Shown here one piece after another: positions 9,865 to 23,927 of a stretch of DNA of 38,727 bases. Position 1 is the first letter of the stretch. Every line of letters starts with the position of its first letter. The translations under genes and the position numbers were made by a program. The notes below the pieces were generated by a model. The model did no database searches and was not told the DNA's origin. It saw only the letters and a list, made by a program, of their open reading frames with translations. The DNA is from a bacterium BMS3Abin08 (GTDB lineage: Bacteria > Nitrospirota > Thermodesulfovibrionia > Thermodesulfovibrionales > JdFR-85), in contig BDTA01000021.1 in assembly GCA_002897935.1 (NCBI GenBank), forward strand, positions 1 through 38,727, given 5' to 3'.

Positions 9865-11612
9865 CAGCAATTCACGGTGAAGGCAAAAAAAGGACCTATA
9901 ACGACAGGAGGCCCAAATATTTTCGGATAATTAGCATACTGAGGCAATTATTGCAAATAAATCCTGTTTATGACGACGGTGTGTTTAATCAAAGAGTCAA
10001 AAATGGCAAGGGAAAGTCGCTAATTGGACAGACCTATCCGTTAATCCTTTCTGGAGAAGGGTTAGAAAGAAGAATCTGAAATGAGAGACAAATAGGAATC
10101 ATCCATTCACAAAAACTCAGAAGGTTTAAGCAGCCGTCTTAACAATATTTCCCAGTCGGGGAATATTAGAATATGAATAGAGGCTCTCAGATGATCCCAT
10201 AAATTCCTCTTGCTGCCAAATTTAAGCCTGCATTGCTGATACAGTATGTCCGTTAGTTCAAATATCTGATGCATGAAGAATGCTAAAAGATTTAAAAGGA
10301 AAAAGTTCATGGAGAGGTGCTTTTCCCCATGGCCGTAATTGTGTTCTATATAATAACCCTGGTTCTTCAGGGTGTTGAATGTCTCATTCTCTATCTTCCA
10401 CCGGCTCCTGCCACCCCTGACAAGTTCTCTAACATTTCCTTTATTAATATTTATATCCGTTACCCAACTGTTACGATATGTTGTTTTCCCCTTGTCTATT
10501 ATCCGGTATTCAAAATAGTTTATCCAGAGGGTATCTTTGTTACCGTTTAATGGAACTTCATTTATCCACTCATATACATGCAAACGGCCTTTTTTATCTT
10601 TTAGTTTCATACTTGAAACCTCTTTTAACTGCCTCTGCTCATTAACCCATTCCATAAGTATCTTGTGGTCTTCCGCCTTTGCCACCAGTATGTATCTCAT
10701 CCTGTTTGCCTTTACTTCCTCTATAAATGGCTGCTTGCTGTGAAGACTGTCTGCAACTATGATTATCTTTAACCTCTGATGGGTTTCCCTTATCTTTTTA
10801 ATCAACCTCTTACCTGCATTTATCTCACAGTCCTGTTTTTTATTTCCGTCTGTATTCTTTACCGCCTCAGGAGCAAGCGGGATTACCTGTCTCATGTCGG
10901 GATGCATAAGCGCTGCCTGCACTATCTGATGTTCATAGCTTACTTTTCCCTTCTTGCTTTCCTTACGCAGACATCCGGGACAGCTTATCTTGTCTGAACT
11001 GAAATATCCTGTCCCATCCATTGAGATTAGATAGTGGTCCCCCAGAAATCGATATTGTTCAAGGTGTTTCCCCCTCTGTAGCGCCATGAAAAAATCCTTA
11101 AATACAGGTCCAAGCTCTGTACTGTCTACTGCATCTATTACTTCTTTCATCTGTGAGTCTTTGGGTATGCTTTCTACTTGAAAAAGTGTCTTTAAATTGT
11201 TATTGTGTATACCCTCCTCCAACCTCTTTTGAAATTGAAGTATGGATGGGTCCTGAAAATACATCATTGCATATCCCGACATGAATACATCATGAATGGA
11301 GTGCTTTATCTTCTTCATCTGCCTATGCTCCGATATGCCTTGCAGACAGCCGGTTAGCTTCTTGCGTAATGATCCAAATGACAGATGTTTCTTCGTATGC
11401 ATTGAAATACATACTACTACATTTAGGGGTCAAAAGTTTAGAATTGTTTTTCTATTTAAATTCAGTAGGTTAGCCTGCTGCTCTCGTGGCTATGATAAAA
11501 ACTCTTTGTCTCTTCTGAGCTTTCGGAAGCGAATACCTTTGCGAATTCCATTTTCTCTTCCCTGCCGAATCCCTTATGTTTACTTGCTCTTTGCATTTAC
11601 TGTGAATTGCTG
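9865..11612 (-). mobile_element. insertion sequence with one DDE transposase gene
   Basis: The ends are set by inverted repeats I found by eye. The left end at 9865-9887 reads CAGCAATTCACGGTG then AAGGCAAA; the right end at 11590-11612 is its reverse complement with 20 of 23 positions matching. The element of about 1.75 kb holds one minus-strand transposase gene, 219 bp of non-coding DNA downstream of it and about 190 bp upstream. No convincing target-site duplication was found. A 237-bp miniature relative lies 8 bp beyond the right end. The outer repeat of that relative matches the left end at all 23 positions, so the mobile unit could also be the full 9865-11857. Confidence 0.75.
10107..11402 (-). 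CDS. IS transposase, IS4-like DDE superfamily
   Basis: The 431-residue protein has the DDE_Tnp_1/IS4-type layout. The first catalytic aspartate is likely in LISMDGTGYF (about residue 150), the second in IIIVADSLHSKQPFI, and the glutamate in the C-terminal block GRSRWKIENETFNTLKNQGY followed by EHNYGHG. The last block is typical of IS4-like and ISNCY transposases. A CPGCLRK segment after the first aspartate is a possible metal-binding or structural element. The frame is intact with no internal stop. Exact IS family assignment needs a database comparison. Confidence 0.85.
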   Translation of the reverse strand: MHTKKHLSFGSLRKKLTGCLQGISEHRQMKKIKHSIHDVFMSGYAMMYFQDPSILQFQKRLEEGIHNNNLKTLFQVESIPKDSQMKEVIDAVDSTELGPVFKDFFMALQRGKHLEQYRFLGDHYLISMDGTGYFSSDKISCPGCLRKESKKGKVSYEHQIVQAALMHPDMRQVIPLAPEAVKNTDGNKKQDCEINAGKRLIKKIRETHQRLKIIIVADSLHSKQPFIEEVKANRMRYILVAKAEDHKILMEWVNEQRQLKEVSSMKLKDKKGRLHVYEWINEVPLNGNKDTLWINYFEYRIIDKGKTTYRNSWVTDININKGNVRELVRGGRSRWKIENETFNTLKNQGYYIEHNYGHGEKHLSMNFFLLNLLAFFMHQIFELTDILYQQCRLKFGSKRNLWDHLRASIHILIFPDWEILLRRLLKPSEFL

Positions 11613-11620
11613 GGCATATC

Positions 11621-11857
11621 CAGCAATTCACGGTTAAGGCAAATAAATTGGAATACATATTACTACATTTAGGGGTCAAACGCTCAGGATTGTTTTTCCT
11701 TTAAATTCAACGGGTTAACGTGCTGCTCTCCTGATATAGGAAAAAACTCCAAGACTGTTGAGAGCTTTGGGGAGTGAATACCTTTGCGAAATTTATTTCC
11801 TCTTTCTTGCCGAATCCCTTATGTATACTTGTTCTTTGCCTTCACCGTGAATTGCTG
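11621..11857. mobile_element. miniature non-autonomous element (MITE-like) derived from the adjacent IS
   Basis: This 237-bp element has terminal inverted repeats at 11621-11643 and 11835-11857 that match at 22 of 23 positions. Its interior is clearly homologous, with substitutions, to the non-coding segment upstream of the transposase at 11403-11600: shared blocks include CTACATTTAGGGGTCAAA, GAATACCTTTGCGAA and GCCGAATCCCTTATGT. It is therefore the IS with the transposase and left non-coding part deleted, leaving a left end fused to the right end. It encodes nothing visible. Confidence 0.7.
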
Positions 11858-12186
11858 GGATTTCGCATCAAGTGCGGAATGACGGAATAGATGACTTTAT
11901 GGACAGACACTATATAGTTGTATAAAAGGGCTCTTCCGGAGACTGCCAGAAGGAGGATATGACAGACTTAGCGACAGATCCGGGTATAACCCCCAAAAAC
12001 CGTCATATTCCCTGCCGATCCCATATTGTGCCCGGCAATGTCTCCGCAGAACTCAAATCCATCTCCGGGATGGTCTTGTGGGGGCTCTGCTGCCCTTGTT
12101 TGATTGGTGGTGAACGGTTTTGAACGCAATATAAAAGACAATTGTACCAAAATGTACAGAATAGCGGAGTTTTAATGGTATTTTGG
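11858..12186. other. gap of about 330 bp upstream of the sulfur locus
   Basis: No convincing gene is present. A 54-codon frame (11959-12123) begins 2 nt after AGGAGG and ends with a hydrophobic LWGLCCPCLIGG stretch, but I cannot assign it and the spacing is too short for a normal start. The first 35 nt resemble one end of the dispersed GGAATGACGG repeat. The right end leads into the sigma-54-like promoter before soxW. Confidence 0.4.
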
Positions 12187-12203
12187 TTGGTATAGATATT
12201 GCT
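12187..12203 (+). promoter_or_regulatory. candidate sigma-54 (-24/-12) promoter of the sox operon
   Basis: TTGGTATAGATATTGCT has the invariant GG and GC separated by exactly 10 nt, with TTGG at -24 and TTGCT at -12. It lies 12 nt before the soxW start codon, so transcription would begin at or next to the ATG, giving a leaderless mRNA or implying a later start. An NtrC-type activator gene lies downstream in the same locus. Confidence 0.5.
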
Positions 12204-12214
12204 TAATTGATGGC

Positions 12215-12613
12215 ATGAGAAAACTGTCCATTTCGGTCATGGTCCTGATGCTGATACTCCTGTCGGGCCTGTGGTCGACTCTATACGCCGCAGACATCAA
12301 GATGCTCTATTTTTATGAAAAGGGTTGTAAATGGTGTGCAATGATGGACAAAGTACTTCAGGACACAACAATAAAAAGCATACTGGATAACAATACCGAG
12401 ATTGACAGAATAGACATTAAAGGCAACAAGATAACCGCCGCCGGCCTGACCGGGAAGGAACTGGCAAAGAAATACAATGTGCGGGGGGTCCCAACTTTAA
12501 TATTCCTTGATTCCTCAAAAAAAGAGATCATCAGGATCCCCGGGGCATTGAAAAAAGAGGATTTCAGGAATGTGCTCTGCGAGTACATAAGTGCATATAA
12601 GACAGCCTGCTAA
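12215..12613 (+). CDS. soxW: periplasmic thioredoxin-like protein (SoxW-like)
   Basis: The 132-residue protein starts with a signal peptide (MRKLSISVMVLMLILLSG, cleavage near LYAAD). The thioredoxin-fold active site CKWC is at residues 38-41 in FYEKGCKWC, and the cis-proline segment is GVPTLIF. It is expected to act in the periplasm as a disulfide reductase, in Sox systems keeping the SoxY carrier cysteine reduced. It is the first gene of the sox run, 102 nt before soxX. No good ribosome binding site precedes this ATG, which fits the candidate promoter placed almost at the start codon. The SoxW label rests on context; generic DsbC/TlpA-type roles are possible. Confidence 0.75.
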   Translation: MRKLSISVMVLMLILLSGLWSTLYAADIKMLYFYEKGCKWCAMMDKVLQDTTIKSILDNNTEIDRIDIKGNKITAAGLTGKELAKKYNVRGVPTLIFLDSSKKEIIRIPGALKKEDFRNVLCEYISAYKTAC

Positions 12614-12715: not shown

Positions 12716-13111
12716 ATGCAGAGTGAAGGTAAGAGGTGCAGTTTGTTTTCCGTTAAGGCGTTTGTAGTTTTTTCAGTTTTTATTTTGTTAACCATTCCGT
12801 CGATTGTCCTGGCGGGTGGTAATGCAGTTAATGGTGAAAAGGTTGTCAAGACCCGCAAGATCGGCAACTGCATAGCATGTCATTATGTTCCGGGACTTGA
12901 ATTCCCGGGAGACATAGGCCCCAATCTTGTCGACGCAATGAAGGGGTTCACCCCCAAAGACAGGGACACCGTCAGACAGTGGGTATGGGATGCCAGAAAA
13001 TTCAATCCCGATACCATTATGCCCCCCTTTGGTCCTAAGAAGATTCTGACCAAGCAGCAAGTCGATGATGTAGTGGCGTATCTTTATACATTAAAAAAGT
13101 ATAAAAAATAA
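12716..13111 (+). CDS. soxX: sulfur-oxidation c-type cytochrome SoxX
   Basis: The 131-residue mono-heme cytochrome has a signal peptide (cleavage near VLAGG). Its heme motif CIACH lies at about residues 52-56 in KIGNCIACHYVPG, and the axial methionine is probably in DTIMPPFG. GDIGPNLVDAMKG and the C-terminal VDDVVAYLYTLK are typical of SoxX. SoxX pairs with SoxA to couple thiosulfate oxidatively to the SoxYZ carrier in the periplasm, passing electrons to cytochrome c. The start has AAAGGAGG well placed upstream. soxY follows after 15 nt. Confidence 0.93.
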   Translation: MQSEGKRCSLFSVKAFVVFSVFILLTIPSIVLAGGNAVNGEKVVKTRKIGNCIACHYVPGLEFPGDIGPNLVDAMKGFTPKDRDTVRQWVWDARKFNPDTIMPPFGPKKILTKQQVDDVVAYLYTLKKYKK

Positions 13112-13126
13112 ACTCAGGAGGAGAAG

Positions 13127-13651
13127 ATGAGCAAAAAGGAAACAAACCTGAAAATTTCACGAAGGCAATTTATGAGATCGACCGGTCTTGGCCTGGTATG
13201 TGCGACGGCATTGATGAGCGGGGCACTGCCCGGACTTCTGGGAAAAGCCTATGCCAAAGGTACTAAATCCGCAAATGATGCAGCCGGGGCGGAAAATATA
13301 AAGAATGTACTCAGGAAGTATTTTGGCGACCGCAAGATCGAAAACTCACATGTGAACCTTAAGTTGCCGATAATTGCAGAAAACGGTGCCGTTGTGCCGA
13401 TAAAGATCCAGTCGGATCTCCCCATGGATAACAACAACTACGTGAAGAAGGTTTACATCTTCGTGGAAGGCAATTTAAATCCATATACCGCCGCTATAGA
13501 TCTTAGTCCTGCCAACGGCAAGGCAGATCTTGCCATGAGAATCAAGATGAGAAAGACTTCCAATGTCAGGGTTGTTCTTGAAACCAGCAAGGGCAAGCTT
13601 TACGGAGCGGTAAAATCGGTAAAGGTCACTATCGGCGGATGTGGTGGTTAA
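13127..13651 (+). CDS. soxY: sulfur carrier protein SoxY
   Basis: The 174-residue protein carries a twin-arginine signal (ISRRQFMRSTGLGL) and ends in TIGGCGG, the swinging-arm motif whose cysteine (residue 172) holds the sulfur intermediates of the Sox cycle. It forms a heterodimer with SoxZ and is probably exported as a folded complex by the Tat system. The start is supported by AGGAGG upstream. The two C-terminal glycines after the cysteine are intact, so the carrier should be functional. Confidence 0.95.
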   Translation: MSKKETNLKISRRQFMRSTGLGLVCATALMSGALPGLLGKAYAKGTKSANDAAGAENIKNVLRKYFGDRKIENSHVNLKLPIIAENGAVVPIKIQSDLPMDNNNYVKKVYIFVEGNLNPYTAAIDLSPANGKADLAMRIKMRKTSNVRVVLETSKGKLYGAVKSVKVTIGGCGG

Positions 13652-13694
13652 TGTATTCTGAAACTTTGAAAAATCAATCAAGGAGGTAATGATA

Positions 13695-14030
13695 ATGCCC
13701 AAAGGGATTGGAAGGATAAAAATAAGGATACCAAGAAAGATTAAAAAGGGTGCGGTAATATCTGTGAAGGCTCTGATAACTCACCCGATGGAAACCGGCT
13801 TCAGGAAGAACAAGAAGACGGGCAAAAAGATACCGGCCTACTATATCAATGATGTCAATGTATATTATGGTGATAAGCTGATAACACACTGTGACTGGAC
13901 GATAGCAGTCAGCGCCAACCCCTTTATGTCATTTTATGTAAAGGCGGACAAGGCTGCTCCTCTGAAGATAGTATGGAAGGACATTAAGGGAGGCGTATAC
14001 GAGAAGACAGTTCAGATAACGCCGGAATAA
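13695..14030 (+). CDS. soxZ: sulfur carrier partner SoxZ
   Basis: The 111-residue protein has the SoxZ immunoglobulin-like fold signatures KIRIPRKIKKGAVISVKALI, HPMETGFR and VSANPFMSFYVKA. It lacks its own signal peptide, as usual, and would be co-exported with the Tat-targeted SoxY. I start at the ATG at 13695 because AGGAGG lies 8 nt upstream; an ATG two codons earlier (13689) is only 2 nt from it. It follows soxY after 43 nt. Confidence 0.95.
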   Translation: MPKGIGRIKIRIPRKIKKGAVISVKALITHPMETGFRKNKKTGKKIPAYYINDVNVYYGDKLITHCDWTIAVSANPFMSFYVKADKAAPLKIVWKDIKGGVYEKTVQITPE

Positions 14031-14064
14031 TTTAAAAAAGAATGCTTGACAGGAGGTAAGAGGT

Positions 14065-14913
14065 ATGAAGATAGAAGGAAAAAAGTTATTGGTGTTGCTG
14101 CTGTCGGTAACCGTTGTGATAGTCTCCTTCGGGCTGTCCCGTTCCCAAGCTGATGATGATACCGGTGATTCGAAGAGCATAAAGGAATTTAAAACGAGCG
14201 TATCACCTGAGGAGTACGAAAGGAGATACAAGGAGTTTTACGGGAACTTTACGGAGCAGATGGCGGAAGAGGGAAACCCGGCTGATTTCATGGTAGATGA
14301 CGGCAAGGCCCTCTTTAACAAGGTTGCGGGTACCAAGGGAAAGTCATGTGCAAGTTGCCACAAGGACAACGGGAAGGACCTTGTCGGAGCAGCTACGAGA
14401 TTTCCGAAATACGACGCATCAATCAAGGGAATAAAAACGGTAGCCCTGCAGCTCAATATGTGCAGGGAAAAGAATATGGGTGCCAAGCCCATGAAGTATG
14501 AGTCGTACGACCAGCTTGCCCTTGTGCTTTATGTTAAATCACTGTCGAACGGGATGCCGATTAATGTAAGCATTGACGGCCCGGCCCGACCCTTTTATGA
14601 AAAGGGCAAGGCCTTTTACTACAAGAGGATGGGACAGCTCAACTTCAGTTGCGCCATCTGTCATGTAAAATACGCCGGGTATAAAGCAAGGGCTAATCTC
14701 ATATCCAACAACAGGCATCATGCCGATCACTGGCCTTCTTACAGACTTAAGTGGGGCAAAACAGGTTCCCTGCAGAGAAGGTTCAGGGGCTGCATGAAGA
14801 AGATGAGGGCGAAACATCTCGCCTATCAGAGTGAGCTATACAGGGACATGGAACTTTACATGACTGATATTGCCAACGGGCTTTCGATAGAGGTGCCGGG
14901 ATTCAGGATGTAA
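14065..14913 (+). CDS. soxA: sulfur-oxidation diheme cytochrome SoxA
   Basis: The 282-residue protein has a signal peptide (cleavage near SRSQA) and two heme motifs, CASCH (about residues 95-99) and CAICH (about 196-200), so it is the diheme type. The conserved cysteine that serves as heme ligand and sulfur site is in RGCMKKMRAKH near the C-terminus, matching the usual C-x4-RA pattern; another cysteine in LNMCREKNMG is also conserved in the family. With SoxX it forms the enzyme that conjugates thiosulfate to the SoxY cysteine. AGGAGG precedes the ATG. Confidence 0.94.
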   Translation: MKIEGKKLLVLLLSVTVVIVSFGLSRSQADDDTGDSKSIKEFKTSVSPEEYERRYKEFYGNFTEQMAEEGNPADFMVDDGKALFNKVAGTKGKSCASCHKDNGKDLVGAATRFPKYDASIKGIKTVALQLNMCREKNMGAKPMKYESYDQLALVLYVKSLSNGMPINVSIDGPARPFYEKGKAFYYKRMGQLNFSCAICHVKYAGYKARANLISNNRHHADHWPSYRLKWGKTGSLQRRFRGCMKKMRAKHLAYQSELYRDMELYMTDIANGLSIEVPGFRM

Positions 14914-14958
14914 CATCCTTACGGGTTGCATAAAAAGCGAATAATTACAGGTACTTAT

Positions 14959-15006
14959 AAAATTCCCCCTTCATCCCTCTTTGTAGAGGGGGGATGAAGG
15001 GGGATT
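14959..15006. repeat. long hairpin between soxA and soxB
   Basis: AAATTCCCCCTTCATCCC and its near-exact reverse complement GGGATGAAGGGGGATTT form a stem of about 18-20 bp around a short loop, with small bulges, in the 147-nt soxA-soxB gap. There is no T-tract, so I do not call a terminator. It could stabilise the upstream mRNA end or attenuate soxB, or be a dispersed repeat. Confidence 0.65.
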
Positions 15007-15060
15007 TATGCAGCATTATCAGGTAATTATATATTTCAATATGAATTTGAGGAGGAGTTT

Positions 15061-16722
15061 ATGAGCGTAACGAGGCGCGAATTTATGCAGGCTATTGGTC
15101 TTGCTGCTGGGTCTTTTGCATTGACGCCTGCGGCCCTTGCAAAAAATCTTAAGCCTGCAAACCTTTCACGATTTGAACCAAAGGGAAACCTGACCATCCT
15201 TCACACTACGGACAGCCATGCCCAGCTTGTTCCGATATACTACCGTGAACCCGATACCAATATCGGGGTCGGCAGGAACAAGGGAAAGCCCCCGCATCTT
15301 ACAGGCACTGCCCTGCTTAATTACTACGGATTCAAAAGGGGCTCTCTTGATGCATATTCCTTTACATGCGATGAGTATCTGCCGCTTGCAAAGGAATTTG
15401 GAAAAATGGGCGGTTTTGCTTATATCGCATCACTGATTAAAAATATCAGGAGTGAAAGGCCCGGAAAGGTCCTGTACATAGATACCGGCGATACATTGCA
15501 GGGATCGGCTACCAGCATGTGGACCCGGGGGGAAGATATGGTCAGGGTTATGAACAAACTCGGCTGTGAGGCAATAACCGGCCACTGGGAATTCACATAT
15601 GGGGAGAAGCGCCTGCTCGAACTGATAGGGATGATGAACTTTCCCTTCATTGCCCAGAATGTCCACGAGGCTACCTGGGGCGACCCGATCTTCAAACCCT
15701 ATGTAATAAAGACCGTCAATGGTGTCTCTATTGCCATAATCGGCCAGGCATTTCCCTATACCCCGATAGCAAACCCGAGGCGCCTTATCCCTGACTGGTC
15801 TTTCGGGATCCAGGAAGAGAATATGCAGAATGTAGTTGACGAAGTCAGGTCAAAAAAGGTGGATATTGTTGTTGTTGCCTCCCACAACGGGTTTGATGTG
15901 GACAAGAAGATGGTCAGCAGGGTAAAGGGGATAGACGTAATAATGGGCGGGCATACCCACGACGGGTTACCGAGGCCCGTTAAGGTCGGCAATACCCTCG
16001 TCATAGGTTCCGGGTGTTACGGCAAGTTCCTCTCAAGGCTTGACCTCAAGGTAAAAGGAAAGAGGATAGTCGATTACTCCTACAAACTGATACCCGTAAT
16101 GTCAAACATGATTAAACCCGACCGTGAAATGGAAGAGCTTATAGGTGAGATAAGAAATCCTTACAAGGATAAACTCAACGAGGTTGTAGGTAGCACGGAT
16201 GACGTCCTTTACCGTCGCGGTAACCTCGATGGAACCTTTGATGAACTGATATGTGATGCCCTGGTTGATCACTATGATACTGATTTTGCTTTTTCACCCG
16301 GCTTCAGGTGGGGTCGCACGGTTCTGCCCGGACCTGTTACCGCCGACGATGTGTACTCCCAGACCGCACTCACGTATCCGAATACGTACAAGAACAGCAT
16401 AAGGGGCAAGGTGGTCAAGGATATCCTCGAGGATATAACCGACAATCTCTTTAACCTGGACCCATACAAACAGCAGGGGGGAGATATCGTCAGGACAAAG
16501 GGGCTTGATTTCAAAATCAAGGTCAATGGAAAAATGGGCGGCAGGATTCAGGATCTGAAAGTCAGAGGAGAAGCGATAGACTTCAACAGGGAATACACCT
16601 TTACCGGCTGGGCATCGGTGAGCGTTCAGAAGGGACCCCCTGTTTATGACATAGTTCTCGATTATATCAAGAAGAAAAAGACAATAAAGGTTAAACTTGA
16701 CAGGCCAGAATTACTATTTTAG
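15061..16722 (+). CDS. soxB: thiosulfohydrolase SoxB
   Basis: The 553-residue protein begins with a Tat signal (VTRREFMQAIGLAAGS). It then has a calcineurin-like dinuclear-manganese phosphoesterase domain: LHTTDSHAQL, DTGDTLQGS, GHWEFTYG, ASHNGFD and GGHTHDG. A 5'-nucleotidase-type C-terminal domain follows. SoxB hydrolyses the terminal sulfonate of SoxY-bound thiosulfate, releasing sulfate. GAGGAGG precedes the ATG and a strong terminator follows. No soxCD genes follow, so this is the truncated Sox arrangement, in which the remaining sulfane sulfur must be removed by another route. Confidence 0.95.
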   Translation: MSVTRREFMQAIGLAAGSFALTPAALAKNLKPANLSRFEPKGNLTILHTTDSHAQLVPIYYREPDTNIGVGRNKGKPPHLTGTALLNYYGFKRGSLDAYSFTCDEYLPLAKEFGKMGGFAYIASLIKNIRSERPGKVLYIDTGDTLQGSATSMWTRGEDMVRVMNKLGCEAITGHWEFTYGEKRLLELIGMMNFPFIAQNVHEATWGDPIFKPYVIKTVNGVSIAIIGQAFPYTPIANPRRLIPDWSFGIQEENMQNVVDEVRSKKVDIVVVASHNGFDVDKKMVSRVKGIDVIMGGHTHDGLPRPVKVGNTLVIGSGCYGKFLSRLDLKVKGKRIVDYSYKLIPVMSNMIKPDREMEELIGEIRNPYKDKLNEVVGSTDDVLYRRGNLDGTFDELICDALVDHYDTDFAFSPGFRWGRTVLPGPVTADDVYSQTALTYPNTYKNSIRGKVVKDILEDITDNLFNLDPYKQQGGDIVRTKGLDFKIKVNGKMGGRIQDLKVRGEAIDFNREYTFTGWASVSVQKGPPVYDIVLDYIKKKKTIKVKLDRPELLF

Positions 16723-20072: not shown

Positions 20073-21410
20073 ATGAGAAATATATTGGTTGTAGATGATG
20101 AGAGAAATATAAGGGTCGTCATACAGAAATTTCTTAAACAGGAAGGTTACGAAGTGGATATCGCAAGGAATTTCGAAGAGGCGATCACTTTAGTTAATGA
20201 AATACGCTATGAACTCGTGCTTACCGATATGAAATTACCGGGAAAATCAGGAATTGAACTCCTGAAAGTCATTAAAAGAGAAACACCCGATATCCCGGTT
20301 ATCATGATAACGGCTTACGGAAGCATAGAAAACGCTGTAGAGGCTATAAAGGAAGGGGCTTATAATTATCTTACAAAACCCCTCGAGCTTGATGACATGC
20401 TTGTAATAATCAAACATACATTGCTACATAAGGGTTCACTGACCGATACGGAACAGTACTTCAAGGAACGGTATGGTATAGTTGGCGACTCTAAGGTTAT
20501 CATCGAGTTACTTGCCACCATAAATATGATCTGTAACAGTCGTGCCAATGTCCTGATCACCGGAGAGTCCGGAACAGGCAAGGAACTTGTGGCAAGGGCC
20601 GTACATCTGGCATCCCCGAGAAGGGAATCAAACTTTGTAGCCATAAACTGTGCTGCTATTCCTCAGGACCTGATAGAAAACGAGTTATTCGGCCATGAAG
20701 AGGGCGCCTATACAGGTGCCGTTTCGAGACGGGGTGGAAAGATCGAACTCGCTGATCATGGAACCCTGTTTCTCGACGAGATAGGCGAAATGTCTCAAAG
20801 TATGCAGATCAAGCTCCTGAGGTTTATACAGGAGAAGGAATTCTACAGGATAGGCGGTTTCAAACCTATAAAGTCAGACTGTCGCATCATCGCTGCAACC
20901 AACAAGAATATTGAGGAGGAGATAGACAGGGGAGCCTTCAGGGAAGACCTGTTCTATCGTCTCAACGTCATACCCATTGTCATACCACCCCTGAAGGAAA
21001 GGAAGGAGGATATACCGCTTCTGGTTGACAATTTTCTGAAGAAATACTCAGAAGAGAACAACAAGTTCATTTCGGGTATTGAACGTAACGCCCTGGATGC
21101 ACTGATGCTTTACAACTGGCCCGGGAACATACGTGAACTTGAAAACATTATAGAACGTGCCATTGTGCTGAGCAGGTTTGAGACCATTATGCTTGCCGAC
21201 CTGCCCAAAAAGATAACGAACAAGGTCTTTGTCGAGAGGGAAGAAAAGGACCTTGGTGAACTGGCCGGACTGACCCTCCCTGAGCTGGAGCGACTTGCAA
21301 TAATTAACGCCCTCAAAGAAGAAAACTGGAACCAGACAAGGGCTTCCGAACGTCTTGGAATTACACGCAGGCAGCTCAGGACCAAGATGATAAAGTATAA
21401 ACTGTTATAA
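20073..21410 (+). CDS. NtrC-family sigma-54-dependent response regulator
   Basis: The 445-residue regulator starts at the ATG at 20073, with GAGGAG upstream; the frame runs further upstream only because it crosses the dispersed repeat. The receiver domain (about 1-120) has DDERN, the phosphoacceptor aspartate in VLTDMKLPG and YLTKPLE. The AAA+ domain (about 140-370) has Walker A GESGTGKEL, GHEEGAYTGAVSRRGG (a GAYTGA form of the sigma-54-contacting GAFTGA loop), Walker B TLFLDEIGEM and NWPGNIRELEN. A Fis-type helix-turn-helix is at the C-terminus (NWNQTRASERLGITRRQLRT). It should activate sigma-54 promoters such as those proposed at 12187 and 21759. Confidence 0.95.
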   Translation: MRNILVVDDERNIRVVIQKFLKQEGYEVDIARNFEEAITLVNEIRYELVLTDMKLPGKSGIELLKVIKRETPDIPVIMITAYGSIENAVEAIKEGAYNYLTKPLELDDMLVIIKHTLLHKGSLTDTEQYFKERYGIVGDSKVIIELLATINMICNSRANVLITGESGTGKELVARAVHLASPRRESNFVAINCAAIPQDLIENELFGHEEGAYTGAVSRRGGKIELADHGTLFLDEIGEMSQSMQIKLLRFIQEKEFYRIGGFKPIKSDCRIIAATNKNIEEEIDRGAFREDLFYRLNVIPIVIPPLKERKEDIPLLVDNFLKKYSEENNKFISGIERNALDALMLYNWPGNIRELENIIERAIVLSRFETIMLADLPKKITNKVFVEREEKDLGELAGLTLPELERLAIINALKEENWNQTRASERLGITRRQLRTKMIKYKLL

Positions 21411-21758
21411 TCCTCAATCCGGCGGCAGTCATTATGATGAGCAGTCTGATATGGTCTTTACCTTCATCCGGAACCCGGCATAAAATCCCCCCTGTTAAGG
21501 ATGGACTTCCTTTGTCAGGGCATCCACCTGTAAATCACTGTACATGAAGGAACAGCTTGGATACCGCTTACTGTTCGATTCCGTACAACAGTGGTTTTCA
21601 AAATCATCCCGGGAGTATGACGGACAAACAACTGATCTTCAACTCATTTTCAGCAGAGTCAATAATATCGGACCATTGGAGACACCGGGGTCACATACGA
21701 CGGTATTGAATGAACCTCTTCGGGATCACCTGTTGTCCTTCCCTTCAATTGATTCATC
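21411..21758. other. regulatory gap before the YeeE/YedE gene
   Basis: About 350 bp between the regulator gene and the promoter of the transporter gene. A 78-codon frame (21544-21780) lacks a ribosome binding site and resembles nothing I know, so I treat it as chance. The size and position suit an activator-binding region, but I could not identify a repeated operator by eye. Confidence 0.4.
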
Positions 21759-21776
21759 CTGGCACAAAAAATGCTT
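21759..21776 (+). promoter_or_regulatory. strong candidate sigma-54 promoter of the YeeE/YedE gene
   Basis: CTGGCACAAAAAATGCTT carries the consensus TGGCAC at -24 and TGCTT at -12, with GG and GC exactly 10 nt apart. Transcription would start near 21786, leaving a leader of about 30 nt that includes the AGGAGG of the gene at 21816. An NtrC-type activator gene lies immediately upstream. Confidence 0.75.
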
Positions 21777-21815
21777 GTAATGCGGGAGAAGAACTATTCC
21801 TAACAGGAGGTATGG

Positions 21816-23048
21816 ATGACAAAAGAGAAGTTGAGAGAGGGTCTCGTTATTGCACTGATAGTTTCAGGCTTCTTATGGGTACTGTATCTGATATTCAAGA
21901 TCAAGGGTTATGCCGGGGTTGATTTAGACTCCTTGTCAGACGAAGAAATAGCCTTAATCAAAAACTCCATAAGAACCACCGTTATCTGGGGAGGACTTAT
22001 TATAGGCGCACTGATGGGGGCGGTAGTTCAGAGATCGAAATTCTGCATTGCCGCAGCCTGCCATAGTATAGTTACCACTTACGACCTGACTCAGTCAAGG
22101 GCATATGCAATGGCGCTCTTTGTTGCAATAATGGGAACCCAGATCCTCTACAAAACGGGGATGGTTGACATAAACTACAGCATATATATTTCCTCTCCCT
22201 TTACCTGGCTGAGTTATATAGTCGGCGGTTTCGTCTTTGGTGTAGGTATTGTTTACGCCGGCGGCTGCGCAAGCAGGATTCTCGTGAGGGCGGCAGAAGG
22301 AAATCTCGGGGGATTGGTAAGCGTAATGGCCTTTATCTTCGCATCCGGTGCAACCCTGTGGGGTATAACCGCAAAGCTCCGCGTAGATTACTTCAACAGA
22401 CTAACAGTCGATTATGATAGCCAGTATATTCCGAACATCCTGCACGGAGTACCCTTTTGGGTCGTCATGGCGGTCCTTGAGGTAGTGCTGTTGATATTCA
22501 TGTTGAGGGCACCGAAGGATTCCGACTGGTGGAGCTGGAGATGGCCGCTGGCAGGGGTTTCGATCGGTTTGACGATTGTCTTTGCCTGGTGGATCAACGG
22601 TGTTGCATTTAAGACAATACCATTGATTGATACATTCTCCTATACCGGACCTGATGATCCTACGCTCCTTCAGACATGGAGACCCAAGAGCCTGACCTTC
22701 GCACTTGCCGATGCTCAAACCTTTCGTTATATTATACTTTGGACCGGGGAGTCTATCAACTTTGCGGTTGCCTCGGTGCTTGGGGTTCTATTAGGAGCGT
22801 TTATATCAGCGCTCATAACACGTACGTTCAACTGGGTAGCCCCTCCTCTTGAACAGTTCAAGTACAATCTCATTGGTGGTTTGCTCATGGGCTTTGGTGC
22901 GGTATTGGCCCTTGGTTGTAACATAGGACAGGGGTTGAGCGGGTTTTCAACGCTTTCCCTCGGAAGCATGCTTACGATGAGTTTTATACTGTTTGGTGCA
23001 ATATCAGGCGCCAAGTTTATCCAGTGGCAGATTATGAGACAGATTTAA
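21816..23048 (+). CDS. YeeE/YedE-family (TsuA-like) sulfur-compound transporter
   Basis: The 410-residue polytopic membrane protein has about nine or ten hydrophobic segments and the cysteine-containing signatures of the YeeE/YedE family: VQRSKFCIAAACH, GVGIVYAGGCASR and LALGCNIGQGLSG. Characterised relatives such as TsuA take up thiosulfate, passing it along conserved cysteines. Here it could import thiosulfate or deliver sulfane sulfur across the membrane to the TusA encoded nearby. AGGAGG lies 5 nt before the ATG at 21816; an ATG 4 nt earlier is in another frame. It is preceded by the best sigma-54 promoter candidate in the window. Confidence 0.9.
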   Translation: MTKEKLREGLVIALIVSGFLWVLYLIFKIKGYAGVDLDSLSDEEIALIKNSIRTTVIWGGLIIGALMGAVVQRSKFCIAAACHSIVTTYDLTQSRAYAMALFVAIMGTQILYKTGMVDINYSIYISSPFTWLSYIVGGFVFGVGIVYAGGCASRILVRAAEGNLGGLVSVMAFIFASGATLWGITAKLRVDYFNRLTVDYDSQYIPNILHGVPFWVVMAVLEVVLLIFMLRAPKDSDWWSWRWPLAGVSIGLTIVFAWWINGVAFKTIPLIDTFSYTGPDDPTLLQTWRPKSLTFALADAQTFRYIILWTGESINFAVASVLGVLLGAFISALITRTFNWVAPPLEQFKYNLIGGLLMGFGAVLALGCNIGQGLSGFSTLSLGSMLTMSFILFGAISGAKFIQWQIMRQI

Positions 23049-23118: not shown

Positions 23119-23634
23119 ATGAAAAAATATATCTTAATATTGATAGTATTGCTTTTGCTGCTCATACAGTGTACGCCCCGGCAGTCTGTGCAGAGGGCCG
23201 GAAATAAATACTGCGATAAACCGGTTGTTATCCAGTCGGTTTATGGTGACTATGATGAAATCTGGGATGACCTTAAGATGGCCCTCAATGAAAGGGGGCT
23301 TGTGATATCGAGTGTGTCACATGTGGGAGAGATGCTCGATAGGACCGGCAAGGCCCTCGGCAGGAACAGGAAGATATATGGGAAGGCTAAGGTGATGGAG
23401 TTCTGCAGTGCTGTGATTTCAAGGAACATGCTTGAAAAAAACCCGCATTATCTGTCTTTTTGTCCATACCAGATCATGGTCTACACACTTCCTGACGATG
23501 GAAGAAAGGTATACCTGTCCTACAGGCACCTTATCTGGAAAGACAAAGGGGATGATGATGTTTTAGAGGCGGTGGAAGACCTGCTGAAAGAGATGGTCGA
23601 TGAGGTAATAGAGCTGCACAAGGAATACAGGTGA
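23119..23634 (+). CDS. DUF302-family lipoprotein
   Basis: The 171-residue protein has a lipoprotein signal with lipobox LLIQC (lipidated Cys18). The DUF302 domain follows: a WDDLKMALNERGLVISSVSHVG helix-strand, then KVMEFCSAVISRNML and FCPYQIMVYTLPDDGRKVYL. DUF302 proteins are small, often periplasmic, and are frequently found beside sulfur-oxidation genes; their role is unknown. It lies 70 nt after the transporter gene and 50 nt before tusA on the same strand, probably in one operon. Confidence 0.85.
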   Translation: MKKYILILIVLLLLLIQCTPRQSVQRAGNKYCDKPVVIQSVYGDYDEIWDDLKMALNERGLVISSVSHVGEMLDRTGKALGRNRKIYGKAKVMEFCSAVISRNMLEKNPHYLSFCPYQIMVYTLPDDGRKVYLSYRHLIWKDKGDDDVLEAVEDLLKEMVDEVIELHKEYR

Positions 23635-23684: not shown

Positions 23685-23927
23685 ATGGAAGAGATTGCAG
23701 TCGACAGGATACTTGATACAAAGGGAATGAACTGTCCGATGCCGGTTTTGAAAACCAAAAAGGTAATAGATGAGATTCAGCATGGACAGATCCTTGAGGT
23801 TATTGCAACCGATCCCGGTTCGAGGACAGACATACCTGCGCTCCTGAAGAGGATCGGTCATGAATTGATAAGCGAGGTTGAGAAAGACGGCGTGTTCTTC
23901 TTCTATATAAGAAAGAACGGCGCATAA
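23685..23927 (+). CDS. tusA: TusA-family sulfurtransferase
   Basis: The 80-residue protein has the TusA/SirA signature LDTKGMNCPMPVLKTKK with the sulfur-carrying Cys17, followed by ATDPGSRTDIPALLKR. It carries persulfide sulfur in the cytoplasm, in sulfur oxidisers delivering it to Dsr or Hdr-like systems. AGGAGG precedes the ATG. Its place after a YeeE/YedE transporter and DUF302 lipoprotein suggests it receives sulfur imported by the transporter, which is inference. Confidence 0.93.
   Translation: MEEIAVDRILDTKGMNCPMPVLKTKKVIDEIQHGQILEVIATDPGSRTDIPALLKRIGHELISEVEKDGVFFFYIRKNGA

Follow-up and report, generated by a model that had tools for sequence, protein, structure and literature searches.

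A predicted sigma-54 promoter before a yeeE-DUF302-tusA operon and its probable sulfur regulon in the Nitrospirota bacterium BMS3Abin08

Introduction

The contig BDTA01000021.1 of bacterium BMS3Abin08 (Nitrospirota, Thermodesulfovibrionales; assembly GCA_002897935.1), whose 38,727 nucleotides were analysed as a whole and are called the window here, carries between the gene of an NtrC-type response regulator and that of a YeeE/YedE-family transporter a short stretch, CTGGCACAAAAAATGCTT, at positions 21759-21776 of the + strand, that resembles a sigma-54 (-24/-12) promoter. Such a match raises the question of whether it drives the transporter gene at all and, if so, by which activator and in response to which signal. 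From the comparison of related loci, we conclude that the site before yeeE is almost certainly a real sigma-54 promoter. Very probably, it is also part of a wider arrangement, in which a three-part sensor drives both the sox operon and the yeeE-DUF302-tusA operon via sigma-54.

Results

The sigma-54 consensus is TGGCACRNNNNTTGCW. The 16-mer TGGCACAAAAAATGCT (21760-21775, + strand), predicted promoter of the yeeE-DUF302-tusA operon, departs from it at a single specified position, with A for T at position 12, and its GG and GC elements lie 10 bp apart, which is the canonical spacing. A preliminary description of this DNA had called the site a consensus match with exact spacing, and this is correct for all specified positions but that one. 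A simple weighted score gives it 21.0 of 22.5, more than any other sigma-54 site of the window. The GC at 21773-21774 places the predicted transcription start at 21786, where the 5' end had already been expected, and the resulting leader of 30 nt, up to the ATG at 21816, indeed contains the ribosome binding site proposed earlier (AGGAGG, 21805-21810, + strand). The presence of rpoN, set beforehand as a test, was confirmed in the source genome (G000:C122:51111-51584; PF04552, E 1.8e-61; open frame of 512 aa); near the end of RpoN, the stretch ARRTVAKYRE resembles the RpoN box.

Orthologs of YeeE were drawn from an order-wide search plus named genomes and gave 14 loci (the window, L013-L018, L051 (= L019), L109 (= L020), L021, L022, L023, L048 and L050), with L042-L047 and L049 excluded because they lie on the same contigs as others. 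The named genomes account for ten loci: one is in a genome labelled Bacterium BMS3Bbin05, and nine are in metagenome-assembled genomes that bear the label Thermodesulfovibrio sp. or Nitrospirae bacterium. Thermodesulfovibrio belongs to Nitrospirota. A sigma-54 site was counted if it scored at least 19 within 160 bp of the start, and a putative activator-binding palindrome, or upstream activating sequence (UAS), if at least 9 of 10 positions agreed within 300 bp. By this count, 12 of the 14 loci carry the former (1000 dinucleotide shuffles: mean 0.18, maximum 3) and 13 the latter (mean 0.31, maximum 3, again in 1000 shuffles). Distant YeeE paralogs of the same order have neither element (0 of 18 for each). 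It is this conservation before the orthologs, with none among the distant paralogs, that separates the yeeE promoter call from chance.

The palindromes follow the pattern TGTWC-N6-GWACA, and three of the 11 copies in the genome fall in the window, starting at 12143, 21539 and 21572. Two of them form a tandem before yeeE, the distal TGTACATGAAGGAACA (21539-21554) and the proximal TGTTCGATTCCGTACA (21572-21587), 33 bp apart, and tandem copies at 32-33 bp are found at 10 of the 14 yeeE loci. In 10 relatives, the distance from the UAS start to the TGG of the promoter is 55-57 bp. A generic repeat search of the intergenic region before yeeE reported a 71% inverted pair, 21539-21555 against 21571-21587; these palindrome arms are really the two UAS copies.

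The third palindrome, TGTACCAAAATGTACA (12143-12158), stands before the sox operon and is kept in relatives. It is followed by a second candidate sigma-54 site at the operon start, TGGTATAGATATTGCT (12188-12203, + strand; score 19.5). Neither this site nor the probable palindromes of the activator figured in the preliminary description. Both elements occur together at 10 of 13 sox upstream regions, in seven of these 10 with a spacing of 44-46 bp, start to start; among the exceptions, L102 is truncated by a contig end and L104 has no UAS. G033 (L051) has sox and yeeE in divergent orientation, with the elements of both in one common intergenic region. The operon opens with the gene of a thioredoxin-like protein (12215-12613, + strand; PF13098), followed by soxX, soxY, soxZ, soxA and soxB (12716-16722, + strand; NCBIfam SoxX, SoxY, SoxA and SoxB over cut-off, SoxZ by PF08770). 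As an observation in its own right, each of the 10 loci with a sigma-54 site has its predicted start only 1-13 nt from the first ATG of the operon, the distance in the window being 1 nt, so these predicted transcripts would be near-leaderless (window, 12188-12217; L095-L099, L101, L103, L105 and L106).

The gene upstream of the yeeE promoter (P0002; 20073-21410, + strand) had been described as encoding a sigma-54 activator, which is borne out by the REC, Sigma54_activat and Fis-type helix-turn-helix (HTH_8) domains of its product, an NtrC-type response regulator with a GAFTGA-type AAA+ loop (GAYTGA) that we propose as the binder of the palindromes. Residue D52 and the helix-turn-helix stretch LGITRRQLR are invariant across eight aligned regulators. 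It is encoded together with a membrane histidine kinase (P0004; 18344-19804, + strand; HisKA, HATPase_c) and a periplasmic binding protein of 515 aa (P0003; 16800-18347, + strand), an AioXSR-type three-component arrangement. In the kinase, HAMP was found below cut-off only and no Cache domain was matched; the L049 ortholog gave a weak sCache_3_2 match (E 0.051, 14.1 bits against a cut-off of 28.4). The binding protein, our proposed sensor, joins a PhnD-like domain (PF12974, E 2.7e-80) to a second substrate-binding-like domain (PF09084) and matches PtxB, ArrX and PhnD structures. Two of its cysteines, Cys93 and Cys150, do not vary among six orthologs; in PtxB, the counterpart of Cys150 in the alignment is a Ser of the STSS stretch. 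A structure prediction of this protein was too weak (mean predicted local distance difference test, pLDDT, 65.5; predicted template modelling score, pTM, 0.47) and was not used. A plasmid search with it returned 814 records, all of which covered less than 80% of the query; the 12 matches that were listed are generic proteins of the PhnD or PhnD/SsuA type.

The composite of a UAS, 26-56 nt and a sigma-54 site was sought in two forms in 176 genomes of the order, with all matches counted. The two forms gave 12 and 19 matches, 31 in total, versus 1 and 1, or 2, for the reversed controls; 20 of the 31 lie before sox or at the yeeE position and three at other sulfur-related systems, and 23 genomes carry the composite. 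By a line fixed beforehand (E 1e-60 or better), 34 of the 176 genomes have a match to the binding protein, and 18 of these 34 carry the composite as against five of the 142 without such a match. With a post hoc line for a close binding protein (39% identity or more), drawn after the matches had been viewed, the composite is found in 14 of 16 genomes versus nine of 160 others (Fisher p 4.8e-13, only indicative since the genomes are related and not independent). The predicted arrangement of UAS and sigma-54 site recurs across the order and tracks the linked periplasmic binding protein.

Several observations weigh against this reading. In the 2.61-Mb genome, TGGCACN6TGCW has 10 exact matches versus nine for its reversed pattern and, with at most one mismatch, it occurs four times in the window where 3.15 are expected; TGTWC-N6-GWACA is found 11 times versus 13 for its control and hence is not enriched. 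Between the regulator gene and yeeE, the search gave no terminator, so that transcription could read through. At locus L023, TGGCAC still follows a UAS by 88 bp and GC is absent at -12, the sox locus L100 has a UAS and no sigma-54 site, its -12 reading TTGT, and the yeeE locus L050 has neither element. Eight of the 31 composite matches lie at places without a recognised sulfur gene. Finally, the window itself departs from its relatives with 188 bp from UAS start to TGG, and no palindrome is left at the usual UAS position.

Since a single sigma-54 site is at chance level, the weight is carried by the comparison and by the linked palindromes, and genome-wide counts of either pattern alone, at or below the level of the reversed control, were dropped as evidence. 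Within the window, the site ranks first by score; the genome-wide pattern count does not set it apart from chance. A position-weight scan of the genome, the check suggested in the preliminary description, would probably not have settled the site. The stretch examined at L050 is also without genes for the binding protein, kinase and regulator, and we therefore count this locus for a pairing of regulator and sites. The longer distance in the window arises because about 132 bp of extra single-copy DNA intervene: the spacer between UAS and promoter (21588-21759), at 172 nt, exceeds that of the relatives by this amount. As it has a single copy in the genome, we rejected the idea that the extra DNA is a repeated element. 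Sigma-54 activators act from a distance, so a long spacer is tolerable.

Were the -24/-12 match fortuitous, a sigma-70 promoter or read-through out of the regulator gene would have to supply the yeeE transcript. The genome count of 10 versus nine, the missing terminator and two weak sigma-70-like matches in 21380-21830 (one on the + strand; 0.9 by shuffle) speak for this, but the conservation and fixed geometry of the sites make it scarcely credible. Sigma-70 promoters and terminators were rejected as signals before yeeE, as the search of 21380-21830 gave nothing convincing.

The same comparison bears on the identity of the activator. Sigma-54 activators are commonly many per genome and adjacency is no proof, so another member of the NtrC family might drive yeeE from the sigma-54 site while the adjacent regulator works elsewhere. 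Yet the pairs of UAS and sigma-54 site track the linked binding protein, L050 lacks both the sites and, nearby, the regulator genes, and the helix-turn-helix stretch does not vary among the aligned regulators, all of which renders such a separate activator improbable and favours the adjacent regulator.

Two variants extend the range of predicted targets. G047 (L140) has a complete sox-binding protein-kinase-regulator cluster, followed by tandem UAS and a sigma-54 site, a rhodanese gene and DUF302; the two-domain rhodanese (L140 3907-4809) there takes the slot of the YeeE transporter at the promoter. In G026 (L146), a paralogous set of binding protein, kinase and regulator genes precedes tandem UAS, spaced by 31 bp, with a sigma-54 site, after which come UspA-like (named by eye), TauE-like and PhsA-like genes (PhsA model 515 against a cut-off of 694). 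Both variants fit the sulfur theme.

This matters for the signal, for promoter and regulator could be real and yet respond to tetrathionate, sulfite, phosphite/phosphonate or an arsenic oxyanion. By sequence, the first domain of the binding protein comes closest to PtxB/PhnD, which bind phosphite and phosphonate; it has a match to ArrX as well, and the second domain weakly matches the NCBIfam TtrS (tetrathionate) model. The targets, however, are sox, yeeE, the DUF302 gene and tusA, joined by the rhodanese of G047 and the TauE-like and PhsA-like proteins of G026, nearly all of them sulfur genes, and we consider a signal of this other kind rather unlikely, though it deserves to be kept in mind.

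The first gene of the yeeE operon encodes a Sulf_transp transporter of 410 aa (21816-23048, + strand; PF04143, 209.9 bits), which stayed below the cut-offs of the NCBIfam TsuA models (138 versus 400 and 113.3 versus 645 bits). In the same operon follow a DUF302-domain protein (23119-23634, + strand; PF03625, 26.1 bits), conserved beside yeeE, and a TusA-family sulfur carrier (23685-23927, + strand; PF01206, 85.5 bits). On the other side of the cluster, the sox promoter and a DDE transposase gene (10107-11402, minus strand) flank two tandem repeats of about 210 bp (11401-11859; 78-85% identical, spacing 245-246). The genome that holds sox also holds dsrA (L147 / G000:C79:32233-33390; 560 bits, one TAA reported inside the match).

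Discussion

The sites with their conservation and geometry, the protein domains, the gene order and rpoN are observed directly in the sequence. Set beside known systems, the proposed control of sox by sigma-54 has its precedent in TspSR; added to it are a separate sensor protein of the AioX kind and a regulon that includes a transporter operon. TspSR of Acidithiobacillus caldus (Li et al. 2017), as summarised in the review PMC6335251, is a sigma-54 system that controls sox via the UAS TGTCCCAAATGGGACA, with thiosulfate proposed as the signal. The TspR UAS given there is, like that of the window, a 16-bp palindrome of the type TGT-C-N6-G-ACA; the sox UAS of the window is identical to TGTCCCAAATGGGACA at 12 of 16 positions, within a frame, TGTNC-N6-GNACA, that other NtrC-type sites may share. 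For TspS, PMC12194929 describes an sCache_3_2 sensor domain; in the kinase here, no match to such a domain reached the cut-off. The PhnD-like binding protein here is encoded on its own, ahead of the kinase, yeeE-DUF302-tusA is added to the proposed regulon, and the phylum is a different one; the accounts of TspSR consulted mention neither a binding protein nor a transporter target.

The three-part plan of adjacent genes for a PhnD-like protein, a kinase and a regulator is that of AioX/AioS/AioR, which according to the account in PMC5908839 senses arsenite with a PhnD-like periplasmic protein, a kinase and a regulator that binds upstream of an RpoN promoter. In contrast to that system, the targets here are sulfur genes, and the 515-aa binding protein has a second substrate-binding-like domain. 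The arsenite oxidase genes aioBA do not lie beside the system; the linked genes are sox, yeeE, DUF302 and tusA. A PhnD-like sensor and a kinase near thiosulfate or tetrathionate genes are also reported for ThsS/ThsR of Shewanella halifaxensis and for TtrS, and the thiosulfate sensor ThsS was found on the basis of PhnD-like sensor domains, as PMC5408782 relates; in its description, the PhnD-like part lies inside the kinase, whereas the system of the window has a PhnD-like protein of its own and an NtrC-type regulator. The occurrence of a Sulf_transp family member near sox and a TusA-family gene resembles what PMC11073785 and PMC11582611 describe for TsuA/YeeE and SoxT; unlike TsuA, the YeeE/YedE protein of the window misses the NCBIfam equivalog cut-offs. 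Our search, confined to a collection of open-access papers, found none on this regulation in this lineage, including sox with sigma-54 in Nitrospirota.

We thus propose the following mechanism; its ligand and start site, like binding, activation and phosphorylation, are inferred. The periplasmic PhnD-like protein would pass its signal to the histidine kinase, which would control the NtrC-type regulator encoded next to it. This regulator would bind the two tandem palindromes and touch RNA polymerase-sigma-54 through DNA looping, with TGGCACAAAAAATGCT working as the promoter of the yeeE-DUF302-tusA operon; via the palindrome at 12143, it would also switch on the sox operon from the sigma-54 promoter at 12188. 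The ligand is most likely thiosulfate or a close sulfur oxyanion, because the analogies to AioX, ThsS and TspSR and the target genes point in this direction, and by these analogies thiosulfate itself appears a reasonably good candidate for the signal. In its presence, periplasmic Sox enzymes would be made together with the import and cytoplasmic relay proteins. Whether all of this holds jointly, that is, a dedicated three-component thiosulfate sigma-54 switch across the families of the order, with a separate two-domain PhnD-like sensor and co-induction of Sox and importer/relay proteins, plus a conserved near-leaderless sox transcript, we regard as an evenly balanced matter.

In summary, our analysis links thiosulfate use in uncultured, sulfur-cycling Nitrospirota to a proposed regulator, to the sites that it probably binds and to a compact regulon. 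The sensor module for oxyanions, PhnD-like in type, has apparently been reused for sulfur under sigma-54 control. The combination of UAS and sigma-54 site constitutes a searchable DNA signature for sulfur regulons, and both the ligand and the regulation of sox become directly testable in a laboratory host.
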